Translations under genes and position numbers: made by a program
The notes under the pieces: model-generated
Told to the model about the DNA's origin: nothing
Seen by the model: only the letters and a program-made list of their open reading frames with translations
Database searches by the model: none
In this document: positions 22,924 to 50,698 of the stretch, piece by piece
Numbering within the stretch: the stretch's first letter is position 1
Layout of the letters: the number at the start of each line of letters is the position of its first letter
NCBI GenBank assembly: GCA_003554025.1
Contig: PWFC01000039.1
Coordinates: 91,872 to 155,871 of the forward strand
Source: Mollicutes bacterium
GTDB lineage: Bacteria; Bacillota_I; Bacilli_A; Izemoplasmatales; Izemoplasmataceae
Reading direction: 5' to 3'
Length of the DNA stretch: 64,000 nucleotides

Positions 22924-23000
22924 GCCGCTTTAGCTCCAACAGGTAGAGCAATTCCATGGTAAGGAAGAGGTTGCTGGTTCGAGTCCGGCAAGCGGCACCA
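22924..23000 (+). tRNA. tRNA-Thr (anticodon GGT)
   Basis: A complete cloverleaf: acceptor GCCGCTT/AAGCGGC, D stem GCTC/GAGC, anticodon stem ATTCC/GGAAG with the loop ATGGTAA (anticodon GGT at 22958-22960), T stem GCTGG/CCGGC around TTCGAGT, discriminator A and an encoded CCA. The top of the anticodon stem is an A-G mismatch. Confidence 0.95.
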
Positions 23001-38937: not shown

Positions 38938-39552
38938 ATGCCCACAAAAACGTTTGAAGCTTTATCCCCATCCAAACAAAAACGCATTGAAGAGGCTGCA
39001 AGAACGGTCTTTTTGCGCATGCCATACGCCGAAATCACCATCAGCGCCGTCGTCGAAGCCGCCGCCATTCCAAGAGGCAGTTTCTATCAGTATTTCGACG
39101 ACTTAGAAGACCTTTACGCCCATCTTTTTGAACAATCTCTCTCGGCGTATGAGGACATGCTTTACACAAGACTTCGTCAAAGCGAAGAGAAGTCGGTGTT
39201 CGATTATTACCGCACGTCGTTTGCCAAAGACTATCGTTATTTGAAGGATTCCGAGTTTCACGCGACGATTCGGAAATTCATACGTGAACGGCAAGGGTTA
39301 GGGTTTGACATCGACTATTTCGAACGTCGCCGCGATCGTTTTTTCCAATATCTTTACCGCCGTTTCAGGGAAACGGGTCTTCAATCTTTTAAAGAAGAGG
39401 ATTGTTTGAAAATCTTTCGATTGCTTGCACATCTTAAAATGCAGTTCATCCAAAAAGTTCTTCGCGACGAGGCGCGTTACAGCGAGGCGTACAACGATTT
39501 TCTCTTTTTCGTCGATTTGATTGAAAGAGGCGCAAGGGAGGAATCAAAATGA
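38938..39552 (+). CDS. TetR/AcrR family transcriptional regulator
   Basis: A 204-residue TetR regulator. The DNA-binding domain fills residues 10-55 with AEITISAVVEAAAIPRGSFYQYF read as the HTH segments ITISAVVEAAAI and PRGSFYQYFDD; the remainder is an all-helical ligand domain. AGGAGG lies 6 bases before ATG 38938. Its stop overlaps the start of the second ABC exporter (ATGA), and a palindrome lies in its 5' region, so it likely represses its own exporter operon and responds to an exported compound. Confidence 0.9.
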   Translation: MPTKTFEALSPSKQKRIEEAARTVFLRMPYAEITISAVVEAAAIPRGSFYQYFDDLEDLYAHLFEQSLSAYEDMLYTRLRQSEEKSVFDYYRTSFAKDYRYLKDSEFHATIRKFIRERQGLGFDIDYFERRRDRFFQYLYRRFRETGLQSFKEEDCLKIFRLLAHLKMQFIQKVLRDEARYSEAYNDFLFFVDLIERGAREESK

Positions 39553-41342
39553 GCCATATATTGAAACTGTTGCGCTATGCGACGCCATACAAAGGGTATA
39601 TTTTGATATCCGTCGCGACGATGTTCGTGCAAGTGTTCGTGAGCTTTTACATCCCGTTTTTGATGATCGACATCATCGACGTCGCTTTGCCCGAACGGGC
39701 GTTTGACACGGTGCTCAATACGGCCTTCATCATGCTCGGGCTTGCCCTTTTGGGCATTGCAAGCGGCGTTGTCAACACTTATACCTCGCAATACATAAGC
39801 CAATACGCGACGGCTTCGCTTCGGTTGGATTTGTTTCGGAAAATCCAGGAACTCTCCTTTAAAAACGTTGACGATTTCAAGGCGTCGCGCTTGATCACCA
39901 ACGCCACAAACGACGTGCTTCGTGTGCAGATGTTCTTCACGATGATGTTGCGCATTGTCATCCGCGCGCCGCTTATGATCGTGATGGGCCTGATTCTCGC
40001 GCTAAGAACTTCGCTTTTGCTCAGCCAAGTATTCTACATCACTATGCCGCTTTTGGTTATTGCGGTGGTGATTCTCATGATCAACGCTTATCCCCGCTTC
40101 AAAAAAGTGCAATACGCGCTTGACGATTTGAACAACGTCGTGTTGGAAAACGCCAATTCGCCTCAAGTCATCAAATCGTTCGTCACGCAGCCTCAGGAAA
40201 GCGGCCGTTTCGAACGTACGAACGAAAATTACCGAAAAGCCAATACGGGCGCGGAGACGGTCATGGCCTTCGCCGACCCGGTCATCAACTTCATTTTCAC
40301 AACCGGCGTGTCGCTCATCTTGTTTTTCGGGGCTTATTATATGCTGCAAGGCGAGTTCATCAGTCCGCTTGGCATCCCGCAAGTGGGGATTTTGATGGCG
40401 TTCAATCAGTATAGCCAGCAGATTTTGGTCGGCTTGATGATGTTTGCGATGATTATGATTTTCCTGAGCCGGGCCAACGTCAGCGCGGCCCGTATCAACG
40501 AAATATTTTCCGCGAATATCGACTTGAAAAACCCGAAAGACCCCATCGACCGCCCGATTCGGGGCGAAATCGCGTTTGAAGACGTGAGCTTCGGCTACGG
40601 AAACGGCGGCAACCAGGTCGTCGAAGGGGTGAATTTCACCATCGCCAAAGGGGAAATGGTCGGCATCATCGGTTCGACCGGCAGCGGCAAAAGCACTTTG
40701 GTGCATCTCATTCCGAGGCTTTATGATCCCACAAGAGGCAAGGTCCTCCTAGACGGCATATCCGCCGACCGCTACGATCTCAAACGCCTGCGCGAGAGCA
40801 TAGGCTTTGTTACCCAAAACGCCACAATCTTCAGCGGGTCCATCGCGACGAACATCCGCCAGGGCAAAGAAGACGCCAACTACGACAATTTGGAAGAAGC
40901 TGCGCAAAAGGCTTTATTGCATACGTTTATCCACGACCAAGACGACCATTACAACTATCTCGTCCGCAGCAAAGGCGTCAATCTAAGCGGCGGGCAGAAG
41001 CAAAGACTCTCGATTGCGCGCGCGCTGATCAAGCGCCCGCCGATTTTGATTTTCGACGACGCCACAAGCGCCGTCGACGCCCAAAGCGAACGAAGCATTC
41101 TCGCCCATATCGACGACCTCCCCTACGACCCGACGCTCCTTTTGATTTCTCAAAAGGTCGCCACGGTCCGTAGAATGGACAAAATCATCGTCTTGAACAA
41201 CGAAGGGCGCATCGACGGGGTCGGAACCCATGAACGCTTGATGGAAACCAGTCCCGTATACCAAGAGATTGCGGCCAGCCAGCTGGATTTGGGAGGTGAG
41301 CGCCGTGAGCGATCCGAAGATTCTTACCAAACGGGAACTTAA
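39549..41342 (+). CDS. ABC exporter half-transporter 2A (degenerate catalytic site)
   Basis: A 597-residue ABC half-exporter: membrane domain 1-310 and nucleotide-binding domain from 335. Walker A GSTGSGKS (near 374), signature LSGGQKQR (near 478), Walker B LIFDDATSAVD (near 502) with D replacing the catalytic E, and a Q in the switch position (LISQKVAT instead of AHR). These two changes mark it as the non-catalytic half. It starts inside the TetR stop and ends 38 bases inside the partner gene, so three proteins are coupled in translation. Confidence 0.93.
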   Translation: MSHILKLLRYATPYKGYILISVATMFVQVFVSFYIPFLMIDIIDVALPERAFDTVLNTAFIMLGLALLGIASGVVNTYTSQYISQYATASLRLDLFRKIQELSFKNVDDFKASRLITNATNDVLRVQMFFTMMLRIVIRAPLMIVMGLILALRTSLLLSQVFYITMPLLVIAVVILMINAYPRFKKVQYALDDLNNVVLENANSPQVIKSFVTQPQESGRFERTNENYRKANTGAETVMAFADPVINFIFTTGVSLILFFGAYYMLQGEFISPLGIPQVGILMAFNQYSQQILVGLMMFAMIMIFLSRANVSAARINEIFSANIDLKNPKDPIDRPIRGEIAFEDVSFGYGNGGNQVVEGVNFTIAKGEMVGIIGSTGSGKSTLVHLIPRLYDPTRGKVLLDGISADRYDLKRLRESIGFVTQNATIFSGSIATNIRQGKEDANYDNLEEAAQKALLHTFIHDQDDHYNYLVRSKGVNLSGGQKQRLSIARALIKRPPILIFDDATSAVDAQSERSILAHIDDLPYDPTLLLISQKVATVRRMDKIIVLNNEGRIDGVGTHERLMETSPVYQEIAASQLDLGGERRERSEDSYQTGT

Positions 41343-43173
41343 CGAAAAACTGAAAGCGCAAATCGACCCGACCGACCCGTCGCAATCGCCCAAAAGAGGC
41401 GGCCGCATGCGCGGAAGCCCGGCGGTCGGACCGAAGCCGAAAAACATCCGCCAGACGGTGTTCCGTTTGCTTTCGTATATGGGCGTGTTCAAGTTCGCCC
41501 TGCTTTTCGTGGCGCTCGCTTTAATCGCTTCGACATTGATGTTTTTGTTGGTGCCCTTTCTTTTCAGTTTCGCTTTGGACAACCATTTTTTGCAATTCGA
41601 TTTTGAAGGGGTGTACCGCATTGCCCTGATCATCCTCTTTTTGGCCCTTTTCAACAGCATGGTCCGGTTCTTCTCAAGGTTCGTGATGGCGCGCATCTCT
41701 CAAAAAGTGGTCAAGAAGCTTCGCAGCGACGCATTTGATAAATTGATGAAAGCGCCCGTCTCCTATTACGACGAAAAAGGTAGCGGCGACATCGTCAGCC
41801 GCATATCCAACGACGTCGAACTCATCAGCAATTCGCTCGGCCAAACGGTTTTAGAGGGGATCAACTCTTCCATCGTCATTGTCGGCGCGTTCTTCTTCAT
41901 GTTTTATTTGAACTGGATGCTCGCTTTGGTCGTTGTGGCCTTTTTGCCAATCATGGTGCTTTTCACCGTAAAAATATCCAAAAAGACCCGCAAAGGCTTC
42001 AAGGAACAGCAAATCCATCTGGCCAGCCTCAACGGCATCATTGAAGAAAACGTCTCCGGTTTGAAAACCGTAAAACTTTACAACCAAGAAGAACCCTTCA
42101 TCGAAGAGTTTCGCGACGAAAACGACAAGTTGAAAAGAGCCGGCTTCATGGCGCAGTTTTTTTCAGGCCTCATTTGGCCGTTCATCCACTTTATGAACAA
42201 CTTGATCTTTCTAACCGTCATCGGCGTGGGGGCTTTTCTCCATCTTTATTTAGGAGCCGCTTTCGTCACCATCGGCCACATAGCGGGTGTATCGCAGTAT
42301 TCTCGGCAGTTCATCATGCCCATCAGCAACCTCGCACAGCTTTTCAACGCCTTGATGCAGGGCATCGCCGGCGCCGAACGCGTCTTTGAGATCATCGACG
42401 CCGAAAGCGAATACGACGCAGACGGCGAGGTTTCCATCGACACTTTGCAAGGCGAGATTGAGTTCGACGATGTGACGTTTGGCTACGATGAAGACGTCTT
42501 GGTGCTCCAAGACATCACATTCCGCGCGAAAAAAGGCGAGCTGATTGCCATCGTCGGACCAACAGGGGGCGGAAAAACGACAACTATCAAGCTTCTCAAC
42601 CGCTTCTACGATGTGCTTTCAGGCTCGATCAAGCTCGACGGTATCGACGTTCGTGAGATGAAAAAAGACGAACTCCGCAAAAAAATCGGCGTCGTGTTGC
42701 AGGATACGCACTTGTTTAAAGGCAGCGTGTTCGACAACATCCACTATGGAGACTTCGACGCCACAAAAGAAGAAGTGCTGCGCGCAAGCAAACTTGCCGG
42801 CGCGCACGACTTCATCGTCAAGCTTCCAAAAGGGTACGACACCGAAATTCATGAAGGCGGGCAAAACTTTTCCCAAGGCGAACGTCAGCTCATCAGCATC
42901 GCCCGCACCATCCTTTCCGACCCGGACTTGCTGATTTTGGACGAAGCGACCTCCAACGTCGACACGCGTACGGAAGCAAAAATCCAAGAAAGCATGAACC
43001 TTCTGATGGAAGGGCGCACAAGCATCGTCATCGCCCATCGCCTGCAAACGATTCAAAAAGCGGACAAGATTCTCGTCATACACAAAGGCCGTTTGATCGA
43101 AACGGGCACTCACGCGTCGTTGCTTGAACAAAAAGGTTTTTACCACAGCTTATACCAAGCGCAATTCGAGTAG
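41305..43173 (+). CDS. ABC exporter half-transporter 2B (catalytic half)
   Basis: A 622-residue partner. A 50-residue basic, proline- and glycine-rich cytoplasmic leader precedes the first membrane helix. Walker A GPTGGGKT (near 417), altered signature NFSQGERQL (near 521), Walker B LILDEATSNVD (near 543) with catalytic E, H-loop IAHRLQT. Start is GTG 41305 after GGGAGGTGAG; the frame continues upstream inside the previous gene, but no other site exists. Complementary defects with the preceding gene show a heterodimeric exporter. Confidence 0.92.
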   Translation: MSDPKILTKRELNEKLKAQIDPTDPSQSPKRGGRMRGSPAVGPKPKNIRQTVFRLLSYMGVFKFALLFVALALIASTLMFLLVPFLFSFALDNHFLQFDFEGVYRIALIILFLALFNSMVRFFSRFVMARISQKVVKKLRSDAFDKLMKAPVSYYDEKGSGDIVSRISNDVELISNSLGQTVLEGINSSIVIVGAFFFMFYLNWMLALVVVAFLPIMVLFTVKISKKTRKGFKEQQIHLASLNGIIEENVSGLKTVKLYNQEEPFIEEFRDENDKLKRAGFMAQFFSGLIWPFIHFMNNLIFLTVIGVGAFLHLYLGAAFVTIGHIAGVSQYSRQFIMPISNLAQLFNALMQGIAGAERVFEIIDAESEYDADGEVSIDTLQGEIEFDDVTFGYDEDVLVLQDITFRAKKGELIAIVGPTGGGKTTTIKLLNRFYDVLSGSIKLDGIDVREMKKDELRKKIGVVLQDTHLFKGSVFDNIHYGDFDATKEEVLRASKLAGAHDFIVKLPKGYDTEIHEGGQNFSQGERQLISIARTILSDPDLLILDEATSNVDTRTEAKIQESMNLLMEGRTSIVIAHRLQTIQKADKILVIHKGRLIETGTHASLLEQKGFYHSLYQAQFE

Positions 43174-43249: not shown

Positions 43250-44164
43250 ATGAACAAAACGCTGAAAGAGTTTCAGGAGACGATCGCTAAAGACGGGGCA
43301 TTAATTGCCAAAGACCCGCGGTTTTTGCGGTTTCTTGCGGTCCGTAGCGATACAGGGTTGTCGTTTCGGATTGTGAAGGGTGAAGCGAGCGCCGTCGGTT
43401 TGCCCGCGCAGGATTCTTTCGCTTGCGACGAAATCAAAGACCATATCGAACTCGATCATGTGTTCACCGAAATTCTCGGTCCCCGCGATTACCTGAATCT
43501 TCTAAAGAAGAATTTCCATCCTGAGTCGACCTCGAACGTTTTTCTGTTGCCGATCAAACGTGAAACCACTCCGCTTTGGTTGTTAGTGCGCGTCTACGCG
43601 CTCGGCGAAACGGCGGATGGGGATTACGCCTTTGGCGGCGAAGTCGTCCACATCCACAAAGACGAACCTTTCAGCATGAAACTGTACAAGACGGCGCACA
43701 CCGACGACCCCACAGGGCTTTACAACCGCGAAGCGTTGCGCCAACACATCATGCGCATGGACAACCACAACAAGCTTTACGGCATGTTCATCGACATGGA
43801 CGATTTCAAGGAAATCAACGACCTATACGGGCATTATCACGGCGATCGGACGCTTGAAAAAGTGGCGCACCGCTTAAAACAGCTCCAAAACGAGCACCGT
43901 CGTTTTTACCGCATCGGCGGCGACGAGTTTTTCGTCGTCGTGCGCACGAATTCTTCACAGAAGGCCCTTGGCCTTGCAAACGAGCTTATCCGCAAATTTC
44001 AAAACGTTGAAATCGAGGGGAAAGAAATGCATTTGACCGCTTCGATTGGCGTCATAAGGCTTCCTAAAGAACGCCCCGATTTTGACACGCTTCTAAAAAA
44101 AGCCGACGCCGCGATGTATGAAGCCAAGCGGAAAGGAAAAGGCAGAGTTGTCTATAAAGATTAG
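43250..44164 (+). CDS. Cytoplasmic diguanylate cyclase
   Basis: A 304-residue protein without membrane helices. Residues 1-140 form an N-terminal domain I cannot name; residues 150-300 are a GGDEF domain with an intact active site (YRIGGDEFF) and DMDDFKEINDLYGHYHGD. The RxxD inhibitory site is not found at its usual place, so product inhibition may be absent. It synthesises c-di-GMP. It lies between two drug-exporter operons with its own promoter and terminator. Confidence 0.9.
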   Translation: MNKTLKEFQETIAKDGALIAKDPRFLRFLAVRSDTGLSFRIVKGEASAVGLPAQDSFACDEIKDHIELDHVFTEILGPRDYLNLLKKNFHPESTSNVFLLPIKRETTPLWLLVRVYALGETADGDYAFGGEVVHIHKDEPFSMKLYKTAHTDDPTGLYNREALRQHIMRMDNHNKLYGMFIDMDDFKEINDLYGHYHGDRTLEKVAHRLKQLQNEHRRFYRIGGDEFFVVVRTNSSQKALGLANELIRKFQNVEIEGKEMHLTASIGVIRLPKERPDFDTLLKKADAAMYEAKRKGKGRVVYKD

Positions 44165-44191
44165 TCCCATCCCATGATGGGGCTTTTTTTT
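44163..44191 (+). terminator. Terminator after the GGDEF gene
   Basis: AGTCCCATC pairs with GATGGGGCT (one G-U) across CCAT, followed by T8. Confidence 0.9.
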
Positions 44192-44202
44192 ACGATTTCA
44201 TG

Positions 44203-44231
44203 TTTACTTTTGCATGAAGATGTGATAGACT
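44203..44231 (+). promoter_or_regulatory. Promoter of the attenuated ABC exporter operon
   Basis: TTTACT (44203-44208), 17 bases, TAGACT (44226-44231) with an extended TGA. Transcription would begin near 44238, giving a leader of about 220 bases before the exporter start. Confidence 0.6.
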
Positions 44232-44276
44232 CTTTTTGTGCGACACACATTCTTATTTGGAAAAGTGGTGATTCTC

Positions 44277-44354
44277 ATGCTCAAAATTGTAAACGCAAAC
44301 GCGAAAAAACCGAATACCGATACACGCTATCCATCTTCAAAGGGTGCATTTTGA
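44277..44354 (+). CDS. 25-residue leader peptide of the third ABC exporter
   Basis: ATG 44277 is preceded by GGTGAT (44267-44272), complementary to the 16S rRNA 3' end. The frame encodes 25 residues, beginning MLKIVNANAKK and ending TRYPSSKGAF, then TGA. The start and stop regions are exactly complementary (12 pairs), which ties translation of this frame to RNA folding. It is neither a domain nor a signal peptide, and its place in front of a terminator and a drug exporter marks it as a regulatory leader peptide. The basic AKK and arginine/proline-containing end could be the nascent-chain or codon-specific stalling element, which is inference. Confidence 0.7.
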   Translation: MLKIVNANAKKPNTDTRYPSSKGAF

Positions 44355-44389
44355 GCATGCGTTCATACCGTGCATGCCGCAATCTTTTC

Positions 44390-44430
44390 GCGCCGCCTTT
44401 TATCGTTGGATAGAAGGGGGCGCTTTTTTT
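44390..44430 (+). terminator. Leader terminator, 30 bases before the ABC exporter
   Basis: A 15-base stem (44390-44404 with 44409-44423; one mismatch, one G-U) with the loop GTTG, followed by T7 (44424-44430). It sits between the promoter and the exporter's ribosome binding site (AAGAAGAGGTG), so unless it is prevented, most transcripts should end here. Confidence 0.85.
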
Positions 44431-44459
44431 ATTGCCGCAACAAGAAGAGGTGAAACATC

Positions 44460-46274
44460 ATGAGACGATTGAAACAATTCACACAATGGATGAAAGGACA
44501 ATTGCATCTATACATCATCGGCATGCTGCTGCTGTTTTTCTTGCAGTACTTTCGTACGCTCACGCCGCTTTTCGTGCAGCACATTGTCGACACGGTGTTT
44601 GCCAACAAGCCTTCGGCGCTGCCGGCATTCATCGCGAACTTGCTGATTGCCGACACCGTGCAAAGGCAACTTTTGCTAGTGGCGGTTTTTTCCGTCGCGT
44701 TCGCCTTGTTCCGTCTGACGTTCGTGTTCGTCCAACGGGTCATTTTCGCCGTGTTCACCGAACGCACCGCCTACAATATGCGAAACACCTTATACGACCG
44801 TTTGCAAAACCTTTCCTTCACTTACCATTCGCAAGCCGACACCGGCGATTTGATTCAACGCACGACAACCGATGTCGACACCTACCGGCGTTTCATCGGC
44901 GAACAGCTTGTCGACGTTTTGAGGCTTTTGTTCCTGATGGTCTTCGCGGTGTATCAAATGATGCTTATGAACCCGCGGATGACCGCCATATCTTTGGCCA
45001 TGTCGCCGATCATCCTAGTGAGCGCGCTTGTTTATTTCGCTTACGTCAAGAAAATTTTCCGCCGCGTTGAAGAGGCGGAAGGAGAGATGACGACCGCCGT
45101 GCAGGAAAACGTCACCGGAAACCGTGTCGTCAAAGCGTTTGCGAACGAACGTTTTGAAATGGAAAAATTCGACAAGACGTCGACCAAATTCCGCGAAGAA
45201 AGCATGCGGCTTACGAAACTTATGGCGTTTTTTTGGGGAGGCACCGATCTTCTGATTTTCGCGCAGTATGCGCTCACCGCCTCTTTCGGCATCTATTTCG
45301 CGGTCATGGGTACGCTCGACACCGGACAGTTCATCGCCTTTTTAAGTTTGCTCGGGCTCATTGTCTGGCCGCTTAGGCAATTAGGGCGCATCGTCGGGGA
45401 CTTTGGCAAAACGACGGTCGCCTTAGACCGCATCGACGAAATTATGGCGCAAGAAAGCGAACACGAAAACGACACGACAAACACCCCCGACATTCAGGGG
45501 CATATCCGGTTTGAAAACGTCACGTTCCAATTTGTCGACGACACCAAGCCGCTGCTTAAAAACGTCAGTTTTGAGGTACACCCGGGCGAAACCCTTGCCG
45601 TCATCGGCAAGACCGGAAGCGGCAAGAGCACGCTGATGAATCTGATGGTGCGTCTTTTGGACAACCAGGAAGGACGAATCCTTTTTGACGGTTGCGACAT
45701 CAAATCCATCAACAAGAAACATCTTCGCAAAAACGTCGGCATCGTCTTACAAGAACCGTTCCTTTATTCGAAAAGCGTTTATGAAAACATTGGCATCATT
45801 AAGCGCGACGTCCCCAAAGAACGCATCGTCGATGTGGCGAACATCGCCAGGGTGCACGACGACATCGAAGATTTTGAAGCCGGCTACGATACGCTGGTCG
45901 GTGAACGCGGCGTCACGTTAAGCGGCGGACAAAAACAGCGTCTGGCGATCGCGAGGATGCTTCTTGACACCAAGCCCGTCCTCATTTTCGACGATTCCCT
46001 AAGCGCCGTTGACACCGAAACCGACATCCAAATACGCCGCGCGCTATACAAGCATTGGCAAAACACCACCGTATTCATCATCACCCACCGCATCACCACC
46101 GCCATGGAAGCGGACAAAATCATCGTGTTGGACCAAGGCGAAATCATCGCCCAAGGCACCCACGAAACGTTGTTGGCCGAAGGCGGATTGTATGCGGAAC
46201 TCTATCATCAGCAAACAAAAATCGCCCAAGAATTCGAAGCGCATAAAGGAGGCGATGAAGATGCAACAATTTGA
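44460..46274 (+). CDS. ABC exporter half-transporter 3A (BmrC-like)
   Basis: A 604-residue ABC half-exporter. Membrane domain to about 320; Walker A GKTGSGKS (near 382), signature LSGGQKQR (near 486), Walker B LIFDDSLSAVD (near 508) with D in place of the catalytic E, and ITHRITT. It has the BmrC-type degenerate site. AAGAAGAGGTG is the binding site. Expression is gated by the leader attenuator, which argues for induction by ribosome-targeting drugs; the drug itself cannot be predicted. The last 14 bases overlap the partner gene. Confidence 0.93.
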   Translation: MRRLKQFTQWMKGQLHLYIIGMLLLFFLQYFRTLTPLFVQHIVDTVFANKPSALPAFIANLLIADTVQRQLLLVAVFSVAFALFRLTFVFVQRVIFAVFTERTAYNMRNTLYDRLQNLSFTYHSQADTGDLIQRTTTDVDTYRRFIGEQLVDVLRLLFLMVFAVYQMMLMNPRMTAISLAMSPIILVSALVYFAYVKKIFRRVEEAEGEMTTAVQENVTGNRVVKAFANERFEMEKFDKTSTKFREESMRLTKLMAFFWGGTDLLIFAQYALTASFGIYFAVMGTLDTGQFIAFLSLLGLIVWPLRQLGRIVGDFGKTTVALDRIDEIMAQESEHENDTTNTPDIQGHIRFENVTFQFVDDTKPLLKNVSFEVHPGETLAVIGKTGSGKSTLMNLMVRLLDNQEGRILFDGCDIKSINKKHLRKNVGIVLQEPFLYSKSVYENIGIIKRDVPKERIVDVANIARVHDDIEDFEAGYDTLVGERGVTLSGGQKQRLAIARMLLDTKPVLIFDDSLSAVDTETDIQIRRALYKHWQNTTVFIITHRITTAMEADKIIVLDQGEIIAQGTHETLLAEGGLYAELYHQQTKIAQEFEAHKGGDEDATI

Positions 46275-48078
46275 AGAAGAAACGTACACAAAAAAAGAAT
46301 TTGACACGAAAACGTGGAAACGGATATTTTCCTTTATGAAGCCCTTGAGGCGTTATGCGATCATCGTCGTCCTTTGCGGGGTCTTTTTGGCCGTCGCCGA
46401 TTTGGCTTATCCGCTCATTAACCGCTATGGAATCGATTACATCATCGAAAACGAGGACCTCTCGATGCTTCCTTATTTCATCGGCGTCTACGTCTTGTTC
46501 ATGGCGGCGATGGGGACGCTGGTCTTCACGTTCATCTATTTCGCCGAGAAAGTGCAAAACCACCTGGCCTACGCCATTCGGCAAAAGGCGTTCAAGAAGC
46601 TTCAGGAACTTCCGTTTTCCTATTACGACCGCACCCCCGCAGGATGGATCATGGCGAGAATGACCAGCGATTCGAGGCAACTATCCGACATGATCTCTTG
46701 GGGGCTCATCGACATCACGTGGGGGGGATTGATGATGATCGGCCTTGCGGTCGTGATGCTTGTTTTGAACTGGCAGCTCGCGCTCATCGTCTTGAGCGTC
46801 TTGCCGATATTGGTGTATTTGAGCCTGTATTTCCGTCGGAAAATTTTGAAGGCTTTCCGGAATATCCGCAAGCAGAACTCAAAAATCACAGGCGCCTTCA
46901 ACGAAGGCATCGGCGGGGCAAAAACCACCAAGACGCTCGTGTTAGAAGAAAGCAACTACCAGGATTTCGACAGGCTCACCTCGCGCATGAAAAAACACTC
47001 GATCCGCGCGGCCATGTTTGCGGGACTCTATTTTCCAACCATCTTGTTCATCGCCGCCATCGCTACCGCGCTCGTCTTTTATTATGGCGGGCTTGATGTC
47101 CGCGACCAGGTGATTCAGGTAGGATTGCTGTACGTCTTTGTCAGCTATGTGGGGCAGTTTTTCGACCCGATCATGCAACTGGCGAACACAATCGCCCATT
47201 TCCAGCAAGCCCAAGCGAGCGCCGAACGCGTCGTCGGCTTGATCGACGCCGACCCCGACATCAAAGACACCCCCGAAGTCGTCGAGCGTTACGGCACGAT
47301 TTTGGAGCCAAAAAAGGAAAACTGGGAACCGCTTCATGGGGACGTTACGTTTGAGAACATCTCCTTCAAATACAAAAAAGGCGAACGGGTTTTGGACAAT
47401 TTCAACTTGCAAGTAAAAGCCGGCGAGTCGGTCGCTTTGGTCGGGCACACAGGCGCCGGGAAAAGCACCATCGTCAATTTGATTTGCCGTTTCTACGAAC
47501 CGACGCAGGGCCGAATTCTCATCGACGGCAAGGACTATAAAGAGCGCTCGCTCAGCTGGTTGCACGGCCATTTGGGCTACGTGCTCCAATCGCCGCATCT
47601 ATTCAGCGGCACCATCCGTGAAAACATCCGTTACGGCAACCTAGAAGCAAGCGAAGCGGAAATCATCGAAGCGGCGAAACTAGTCGGCGCGCACGAGTTT
47701 ATCGAATCGTTCGCCGAAGGCTACGACACAGAAGTACAAGAGGGCGGTTCCCGTCTTAGCGTCGGGCAAAAACAGCTGATCAGCTTCGCCCGGGCGCTCA
47801 TCAAAGACCCCGCCATCCTGATTCTCGATGAAGCCACAAGTTCGGTCGACACCGCGACCGAACAAAAGATTCAAAAAGCCATCGAGGTCATCATGCGCGG
47901 AAGAACATCGTTTGTCATCGCCCATCGCCTTTCAACCATCGTGAACGCCGACAAGATTTTGGTGTTGGAACACGGCAAGATCATCGAAGCGGGGTCCCAC
48001 GAAGAACTGCTGAACAACCGCGCCCATTATTACCAGCTTTACACGAACCAATTCAAAGAAACCGCCTTGAGCCACTAA
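46261..48078 (+). CDS. ABC exporter half-transporter 3B (BmrD-like)
   Basis: A 605-residue catalytic partner. Walker A GHTGAGKS (near 394), altered signature LSVGQKQL (near 498), Walker B LILDEATSSVD (near 520) with catalytic E, and IAHRLST. An insertion of about 20 residues (EPKKENWEPLHGD region) lies just before the nucleotide-binding domain, as in BmrD-like proteins. ATG 46261 is preferred: AAAGGAGG lies 8 bases upstream, whereas ATG 46255 is too close. The reading frame continues far upstream within the previous gene, but this has no coding character. A terminator follows the stop. Confidence 0.93.
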   Translation: MQQFEEETYTKKEFDTKTWKRIFSFMKPLRRYAIIVVLCGVFLAVADLAYPLINRYGIDYIIENEDLSMLPYFIGVYVLFMAAMGTLVFTFIYFAEKVQNHLAYAIRQKAFKKLQELPFSYYDRTPAGWIMARMTSDSRQLSDMISWGLIDITWGGLMMIGLAVVMLVLNWQLALIVLSVLPILVYLSLYFRRKILKAFRNIRKQNSKITGAFNEGIGGAKTTKTLVLEESNYQDFDRLTSRMKKHSIRAAMFAGLYFPTILFIAAIATALVFYYGGLDVRDQVIQVGLLYVFVSYVGQFFDPIMQLANTIAHFQQAQASAERVVGLIDADPDIKDTPEVVERYGTILEPKKENWEPLHGDVTFENISFKYKKGERVLDNFNLQVKAGESVALVGHTGAGKSTIVNLICRFYEPTQGRILIDGKDYKERSLSWLHGHLGYVLQSPHLFSGTIRENIRYGNLEASEAEIIEAAKLVGAHEFIESFAEGYDTEVQEGGSRLSVGQKQLISFARALIKDPAILILDEATSSVDTATEQKIQKAIEVIMRGRTSFVIAHRLSTIVNADKILVLEHGKIIEAGSHEELLNNRAHYYQLYTNQFKETALSH

Positions 48079-50614: not shown

Positions 50615-50698
50615 GCCAGCATGGCGGAACTGGTAGACGCGCTAGACTCAAAATCTGGTGGACGTTAGTCCGTGTCGGTTCGAATCCGACTGCTGGTA
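50615..50698 (+). tRNA. tRNA-Leu (anticodon CAA)
   Basis: Complete class II tRNA: acceptor GCCAGCA/TGCTGGT (G-U at the first pair), anticodon stem CTAGA/TCTGG with the loop CTCAAAA (anticodon CAA at 50649-50651), long variable arm GGAC/GTCC, T stem GTCGG/CCGAC. Discriminator A; no encoded CCA. A T7 run follows directly and the convergent gene ends 6 bases later. Confidence 0.95.

Follow-up and report, generated by a model that had tools for sequence, protein, structure and literature searches.

The RNA leader in front of a heterodimeric ABC exporter in the window (the whole 64,000-nucleotide stretch of Mollicutes bacterium DNA analysed here) is proposed to control the exporter by ribosome-mediated transcription attenuation, switched ON by a ribosome that stalls in the first codons of a short leader frame. 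This reading, to which we assign a probability of about three in four, draws on sequence comparison among relatives and on modelling of RNA folding. With no ribosome on the leader, the strand carrying the Shine-Dalgarno (SD) region and start codon would pair with the 3′ part of the leader as an anti-antiterminator, and the terminator would form, leaving the exporter OFF. A ribosome that reaches the stop codon would cover the 3′ half of the leader, and the terminator would again form (OFF). A ribosome held at approximately codons 1–5 (codons 1–11 in the window) would cover the SD/start strand and free the leader interior, which would then pair, as an antiterminator, with the loop and 3′ arm of the emerging terminator, such that RNA polymerase would read on (ON).

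If this is correct, a lineage that lacks a laboratory model can respond inducibly when translation is blocked, and its attenuator functions despite a drifting peptide because only the openness of the frame and the helices are under selection. One sensor would also link an ABC-F factor with an exporter, in arrangements that lie one branch of the exporter tree apart. Both the polarity and the inducing stall positions are predicted codon by codon.

The leader and the exporter in the window

All elements of the leader are read from the forward strand. The promoter (44203–44231) combines a −35 element TTTACT (44203–44208), a 17-nt spacer, and an extended −10 element TGATAGACT, in which TAGACT ends at 44231. 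The leader frame MLKIVNANAKKPNTDTRYPSSKGAF (44277–44354) comprises 25 codons and a TGA stop and is preceded by the SD region GTGGTGATT (44265–44273). Its start and stop are joined by a perfect 12-bp helix, the putative anti-antiterminator, with 44276–44287 as the 5′ strand and 44348–44359 as the 3′ strand. An intrinsic terminator begins 35 nt 3′ of the leader stop; a stem at 44390–44423 followed by seven T spans 44390–44430 in total, with a folding energy of −25.9 kcal/mol. It lies 29 nt from the exporter ATG at 44460, which has its own SD region, AAGAGGTG (44445–44452). The promoter, the 25-codon frame with its ribosome binding site, the start–stop helix, and the strong terminator named in the original prediction are all present in the sequence. 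An inverted repeat of at least 12 bp arises in 1 of 2000 dinucleotide-preserving shuffles of 44263–44380, and the pairing energy of the start region with the leader end (−20.3 kcal/mol) is equalled by 0 of 20 leaders from other genera and by 0 of 200 shuffles. Folding of the whole leader yields z = −3.98, with 1 of 200 shuffles equally good.

Two alternative pairings of the leader interior with the terminator had been proposed, and one of them is kept as a candidate. CTATCC (44327–44332), a putative antiterminator strand, pairs with GGATAG (44408–44413) in the terminator loop and 3′ arm, and this pairing is retained in G041, the nearest relative. The pairing of CGCGAAAA (44300–44307) with its complement TTTTCGCG (44385–44392) was dropped as a conserved part of the leader, as CGCGAAAA is missing from the G041 leader. 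For the window by itself, leader–terminator pairing is at chance level, with 123 of 300 shuffles as good. The start–stop helix and CTATCC/GGATAG have no bases in common; since the antiterminator strand lies inside the loop of the start–stop helix, the two pairings would be mutually exclusive by geometry.

The exporter genes lie on the same strand at 44460–46274 (first half, 604 aa) and 46261–48078 (second half), the second gene, with its ATG at 46261, overlapping the stop of the first. Both products contain the domains PF00664 and PF00005, found for the second half in a domain search on 46282–48075. Walker B is written IFDDS in the first half, which we take to be degenerate, and ILDEATS in the second, which is presumably catalytic. 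YheI chains are among the PDB matches of the first half and YheH chains among those of the second, in each case ranked below others; the top matches are proteins other than BmrC/BmrD. The closest named record, with an exporter 90% identical, is the metagenome-assembled 'Mollicutes bacterium' PUOX01000030.1. We infer that the exporter transports drugs and that drugs induce it.

Immediately 5′ of the leader promoter, a separate hairpin with a T run (44166–44193) is probably the terminator of a GGDEF (diguanylate cyclase) gene at 43250–44164. This gene lies between the leader and a further pair of ABC half-transporters (39549–43173), again with one degenerate and one catalytic Walker B; visual inspection showed no leader in front of the first gene of that pair. 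GGDEF-type gene ends precede the leader in the four leader-bearing genomes of genus g1 and in no other genus read; a gene ending like the second half of the 39549–43173 pair lies immediately 5′ of the leader in genera g2, g5, and g9.

Leaders among relatives

Within the bacterial family of the window, 49 genomes were searched, and an orthologue of the first exporter gene (E up to 1e-150) was found in 44, for all of which the upstream DNA was inspected. A leader frame and terminator stand immediately 5′ of the exporter in 25 of the 44 (the contig of G037 begins at the leader start), and the exporter is preceded by an ABC-F gene in 18. Seventeen of the latter are assigned by position; in G018 the contig is too short, and the assignment is made from the look of the gene's end alone. 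The remaining genome, G039 (locus L029), belongs to the genus of the window and carries a promoter-like stretch before the exporter, but by eye lacks both the leader frame and the terminator.

Leaders of the same design also stand before the ABC-F gene. They were present in 10/10 genomes inspected first, and 17 are now known (16 analysed and one more in G020). The relatives' ABC-F protein scores 487 bits, above the NCBIfam cut-off of 380 bits for ribosomal-protection-like ABC-F proteins. The 25 genomes with a leader directly before the exporter, that of the window included, yielded no ABC-F orthologue (E up to 1e-90). Leaders before either gene occur in 16 of the 17 genera examined; in the seventeenth, g14, represented by one genome, the exporter start is missing from the contig. 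A promoter with a TGN-preceded −10 element and a −35 element with at least four of six matches is found for 22 of 24 exporter-type leaders and is unclear in G004 and G029, the latter of which also has a terminator that overlaps the end of the leader frame.

In a tree of 30 full-length exporters of the 44 and two outgroup rows, in which the leaderless G039 was counted as exporter type, a single branch with 100/100 support separates the exporter-type from the ABC-F-type arrangement. Both are therefore accounted for if the ABC-F gene was gained or lost once, and leaders occur on either side of this branch, as read from the sequences. Genomes of the sister family f2 mostly have the ABC-F gene a few kb 5′ of the exporter; inspection by eye revealed no leader in front of 28 exporter genes or of 29 ABC-F genes.

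A full copy of the leader was also observed in G013 (C31, 11007–11193; locus L146), away from the ABC-F and exporter genes and before a long acetyltransferase-like gene, the start of which we take to resemble a GNAT acetyltransferase. At L089, a gene with a weak PF00198 (2-oxoacid dehydrogenase acyltransferase) domain (251–1117) lies 5′ of an ABC-F-type leader, and similar gene ends precede exporter-type leaders in genera g3, g4, g12, g13, and g15.

Competing helices and the modelled position of the ribosome

The pairing of strands within their own genome was compared with that of strands permuted between genomes (20,000 permutations) in 40 leaders, 24 of the exporter type and 16 of the ABC-F type. 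Three leaders were left out: that of G037, because of its contig start, and those of G020 and the acetyltransferase-like gene, because they were found later. The SD/start strand pairs with the later leader at −17.57 kcal/mol within genomes versus −14.49 kcal/mol when permuted, and the leader interior pairs with the inner part of the terminator at −14.56 versus −12.74 kcal/mol; in both cases, 0 of 20,000 permutations reach the observed value. Since kinship inflates such permutation tests, they were repeated for the exporter type with one genome per genus, which gives 0.003 for the start pairing and 0.013 for the terminator pairing. The 16 ABC-F-type leaders alone have little power, with 770 and 8186 of 20,000 permutations, respectively, reaching the observed values. 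Signals in single genomes are weak: the start pairing is equalled by no more than 10 of 200 shuffles in 11 of 24 genomes, and the terminator pairing by no more than 15 of 300 in 3 of 24. We assign the first pairing as the putative anti-antiterminator and the second as the putative antiterminator. The survival of frame and helices in relatives, on which the original prediction had been staked, is borne out in that both helices pair better within genomes and the frame is kept in all 40 leaders.

Additionally, the alignment of the ABC-F-type leaders contains seven pairs, GTGATGG/CCATCAC, that become GTGATGA/TCATCAC in two of three g10 leaders, with both strands changed; in this helix G011 shows a G-U pair and G014 a mismatch. 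RNAalifold returns both helices from the 16 ABC-F-type leaders. From the 23-row alignment A1, which holds 23 of the 25 leaders assembled for it (the near-copies G017 and G028 being left out), it returns the terminator only, with some rows out of register at the leader end. A literal mimicry of the SD/start motif by the terminator was considered and is not upheld, since the score within genomes is 11.20 versus 10.82 when permuted, reached by 2182 of 20,000 permutations overall and by 14,379 of 20,000 in the exporter type alone.

The original prediction had left the polarity of the switch open, and modelling of the ribosome now predicts one. Folding was modelled at the point at which the terminator loop and half of its 3′ arm have emerged, which approximates co-transcriptional folding. 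Across the 40 leaders, the modelled mean upstream pairing of the inner terminator is 0.39 with no ribosome and 0.67 with a ribosome on the start codon, with a rise in 37 leaders and a fall by more than 0.02 in one. With a ribosome on the stop codon, the mean antiterminator pairing is 0.26; the start position gives the higher modelled value in 38 of 40 leaders and is never lower by more than 0.02. As the modelled ribosome slides along the frame, the mean change is +0.28 at codon 1, +0.28 at codon 3, and +0.20 at codon 5, approximately zero over codons 7–17, and negative from codon 19. The rise at the start codon (+0.281) compares with −0.057 to +0.003 in eight replicates with shuffled interiors. 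In the window leader, tested at every second codon, modelled antiterminator pairing is 0.42 with no ribosome, 0.63–0.67 with a ribosome at codons 1–11, and 0.03–0.09 at codons 13–25. The predicted polarity is thus ON with an early stall and OFF with a ribosome absent or late.

The reverse polarity, in which efficient translation of the leader melts the start–stop helix and gives the interior access to the terminator, so that the exporter is ON under favourable conditions and OFF during a shortage of ribosomes, is the least probable of the alternatives weighed here. A ribosome in transit does open this helix, and codons 15 and 17 show small mean gains in the model (+0.004 and +0.048); however, the average loss of antiterminator pairing from codon 19 onward and the advantage of the start over the stop position both speak against it. 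At equilibrium, the completed terminator dominates despite a ribosome on the start codon (0.92 in the window), and the ON/OFF decision must therefore come during transcription. Known attenuators also decide during transcription.

Leader frame, known attenuators, and range of the family

Counted from nucleotide +12, since the AUGA start context would bias a count from the start, the leader frame is open for at least 11 codons in 40/40 leaders, while the other two frames are open in 16/40 and 17/40. This bears on a quite improbable alternative, namely that the RNA senses a ligand or a protein, or is a plain constitutive attenuator, with the reading frame incidental. The leader is indeed structured, with a strong terminator, and peptide conservation is absent; however, an SD region and an open frame are present in all 40 leaders, and the conserved helix is built from the SD/start strand itself. 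Furthermore, Rfam 15 returns nothing for the leader: at gathering score, the only matches in the window are two tRNA genes (22924–22997 and 50615–50698), and searches of five family loci, that of the window among them, give none at E up to 1.

The frames span 16–36 codons. In ten close pairs, substitutions in in-frame columns number 64, 68, and 74 at codon positions 1, 2, and 3, respectively; of seven indels, two have a length divisible by three and five do not, and leader length is equal in nine of ten pairs. Because the substitutions are even and the frame is open in all 40 leaders, what is read is probably something other than the peptide sequence. The ribosome-controlled attenuator of the original prediction is thus retained on the strength of the frame and helices, and its leader peptide as the signal is probably to be given up. 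With the frame conserved and the peptide not, the leader should report any early translation block rather than one stall peptide. Taken with the early stall positions, this pattern suggests that the inducers would be drugs that block translation just after initiation.

A specific arrest peptide of the MefAL/ErmCL kind, on which a drug would halt the ribosome at one leader motif and so open the terminator, is accordingly unlikely, if somewhat less so than the other two alternatives. In its favour, a C-terminal FFVMxxPS-like stretch is common to many ABC-F-type leaders, and 14 of 41 leaders start with MI, comparable with the vmlR upstream open reading frame (uORF) MIN described in the available text of PMC9226507. 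However, the peptides vary widely among genera, substitutions are evenly spread over codon positions, the FFVM stretch coincides with the RNA segment that pairs to the start region, so that base pairing may account for it, and the window peptide has no R/K-x-R/K motif. In most of the ABC-F-type leaders L082–L091, FFVM is encoded by a T run followed by GTYATG. Besides being able to pair with the start region, this segment might act as an RNA polymerase pause.

The preferred reading, attenuation by an early-stalled ribosome, can be set beside known systems as described in the accessible portions of the papers cited. In vmlR of Bacillus subtilis, the uORF lies within an anti-antiterminator, and a stalled ribosome leads to the antiterminator and to transcription past the terminator; the uORF has three codons, its sequence may vary (MIN, MDN, and MDK all work), and its SD is single-stranded, 5′ of the helix (PMC9226507). 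An ABC-F gene is controlled there (PMC9226507), as is predicted for the leaders of 17 relatives here; the leaders here span many more codons and use the SD/start region as a helix strand. A further difference is that the window leader precedes an exporter, in a genome that yielded no ABC-F orthologue at E up to 1e-90. The bmrB–bmrCD system of Bacillus subtilis, induced by ribosome-targeting drugs, likewise has a leader frame, a terminator, and a proposed antiterminator before a heterodimeric ABC exporter; however, the bmrB terminator lies within the coding frame, unlike that of the window, which starts past the stop, and an anti-antiterminator role was left open by the authors in the text consulted (PMC4191407). 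The cplR leader of Clostridioides difficile shares a short uORF with little sequence demand before an ABC-F gene and is thought to report post-initiation drugs; it differs in its uORF consensus MR[I/M], and translational attenuation is described as an added layer (PMC10201436). For both vmlR and cplR, these papers argue, in the parts available, that drugs acting just after initiation are what is sensed (PMC9226507, PMC10201436).

Three features of the ribosome-mediated attenuator class are found here: an SD region and short frame upstream of the gene (in sequence, for the window and 40/40 leaders), an intrinsic terminator between frame and gene, and a mutually exclusive antiterminator pairing over the 40-leader set, this last being at chance level in the window alone. 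By analogy, its predicted mode of action is that of vmlR, except that the frame is longer and drifts and the SD/start region serves as the switch strand. Of the two comparators named in the original prediction, it has more in common with vmlR than with bmrB, since leaders of the same design also stand before an ABC-F gene. The resemblance to both is one of design; the leader departs from each in an anatomical feature and is therefore filed under neither. The pump of mefA/msrD is of the MFS type. That operon also unites efflux and ABC-F genes under leader-peptide transcription attenuation, with specific macrolide arrest peptides in two leaders, MefAL and MsrDL, on mobile elements, in contrast to one drifting leader, chromosomal contigs, and an ABC exporter here (excerpts of PMC10314930). 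There is an even chance that the leader represents a portable early-arrest sensor in a single uncultured bacterial family, using its own ribosome binding site as a switch strand and a drifting peptide, and placed before an ABC-F plus exporter operon, an exporter alone, or an acetyltransferase-like gene.

A genome-wide terminator survey describes attenuators before ABC transporter genes ('ABC-leaders') and their 'hopping' from gene to gene; its available text names no leader of this design and contains neither 'Mollicutes' nor 'Acholeplasma' (PMC2965389). Within the accessible text of the open-licence PMC literature, no paper was recognised as describing this leader. A covariance model, R1, was built from 23 leaders, the genus of the window not included; its start helix was entered by hand, and R1 is therefore not independent proof of that helix. 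R1 matches 29 of the 49 family genomes, among them G004, whose match on contig C94 was rejected as a leader, since on visual inspection it is a hairpin resembling a terminator and flanked by permease-like genes. At class level, 18 of 395 sampled genomes were matched, all 18 in the family of the window, under strict filters that also miss the window. The leader is thus known from one bacterial family only, through a search that misses weak matches. With default filters, R1 likewise misses the window leader. An unfiltered run of R1 on 16 loci (66 kb) leaves five of 15 leader-bearing loci unmatched (G040, G043, G006, G022, and G029, two of them in the genus of the window); all of the top eight hits, and 10 of the 15 hits with E up to 1, fall on leaders, and the window leader is recovered at 44263–44429 with 26.6 bits and E = 0.0074.
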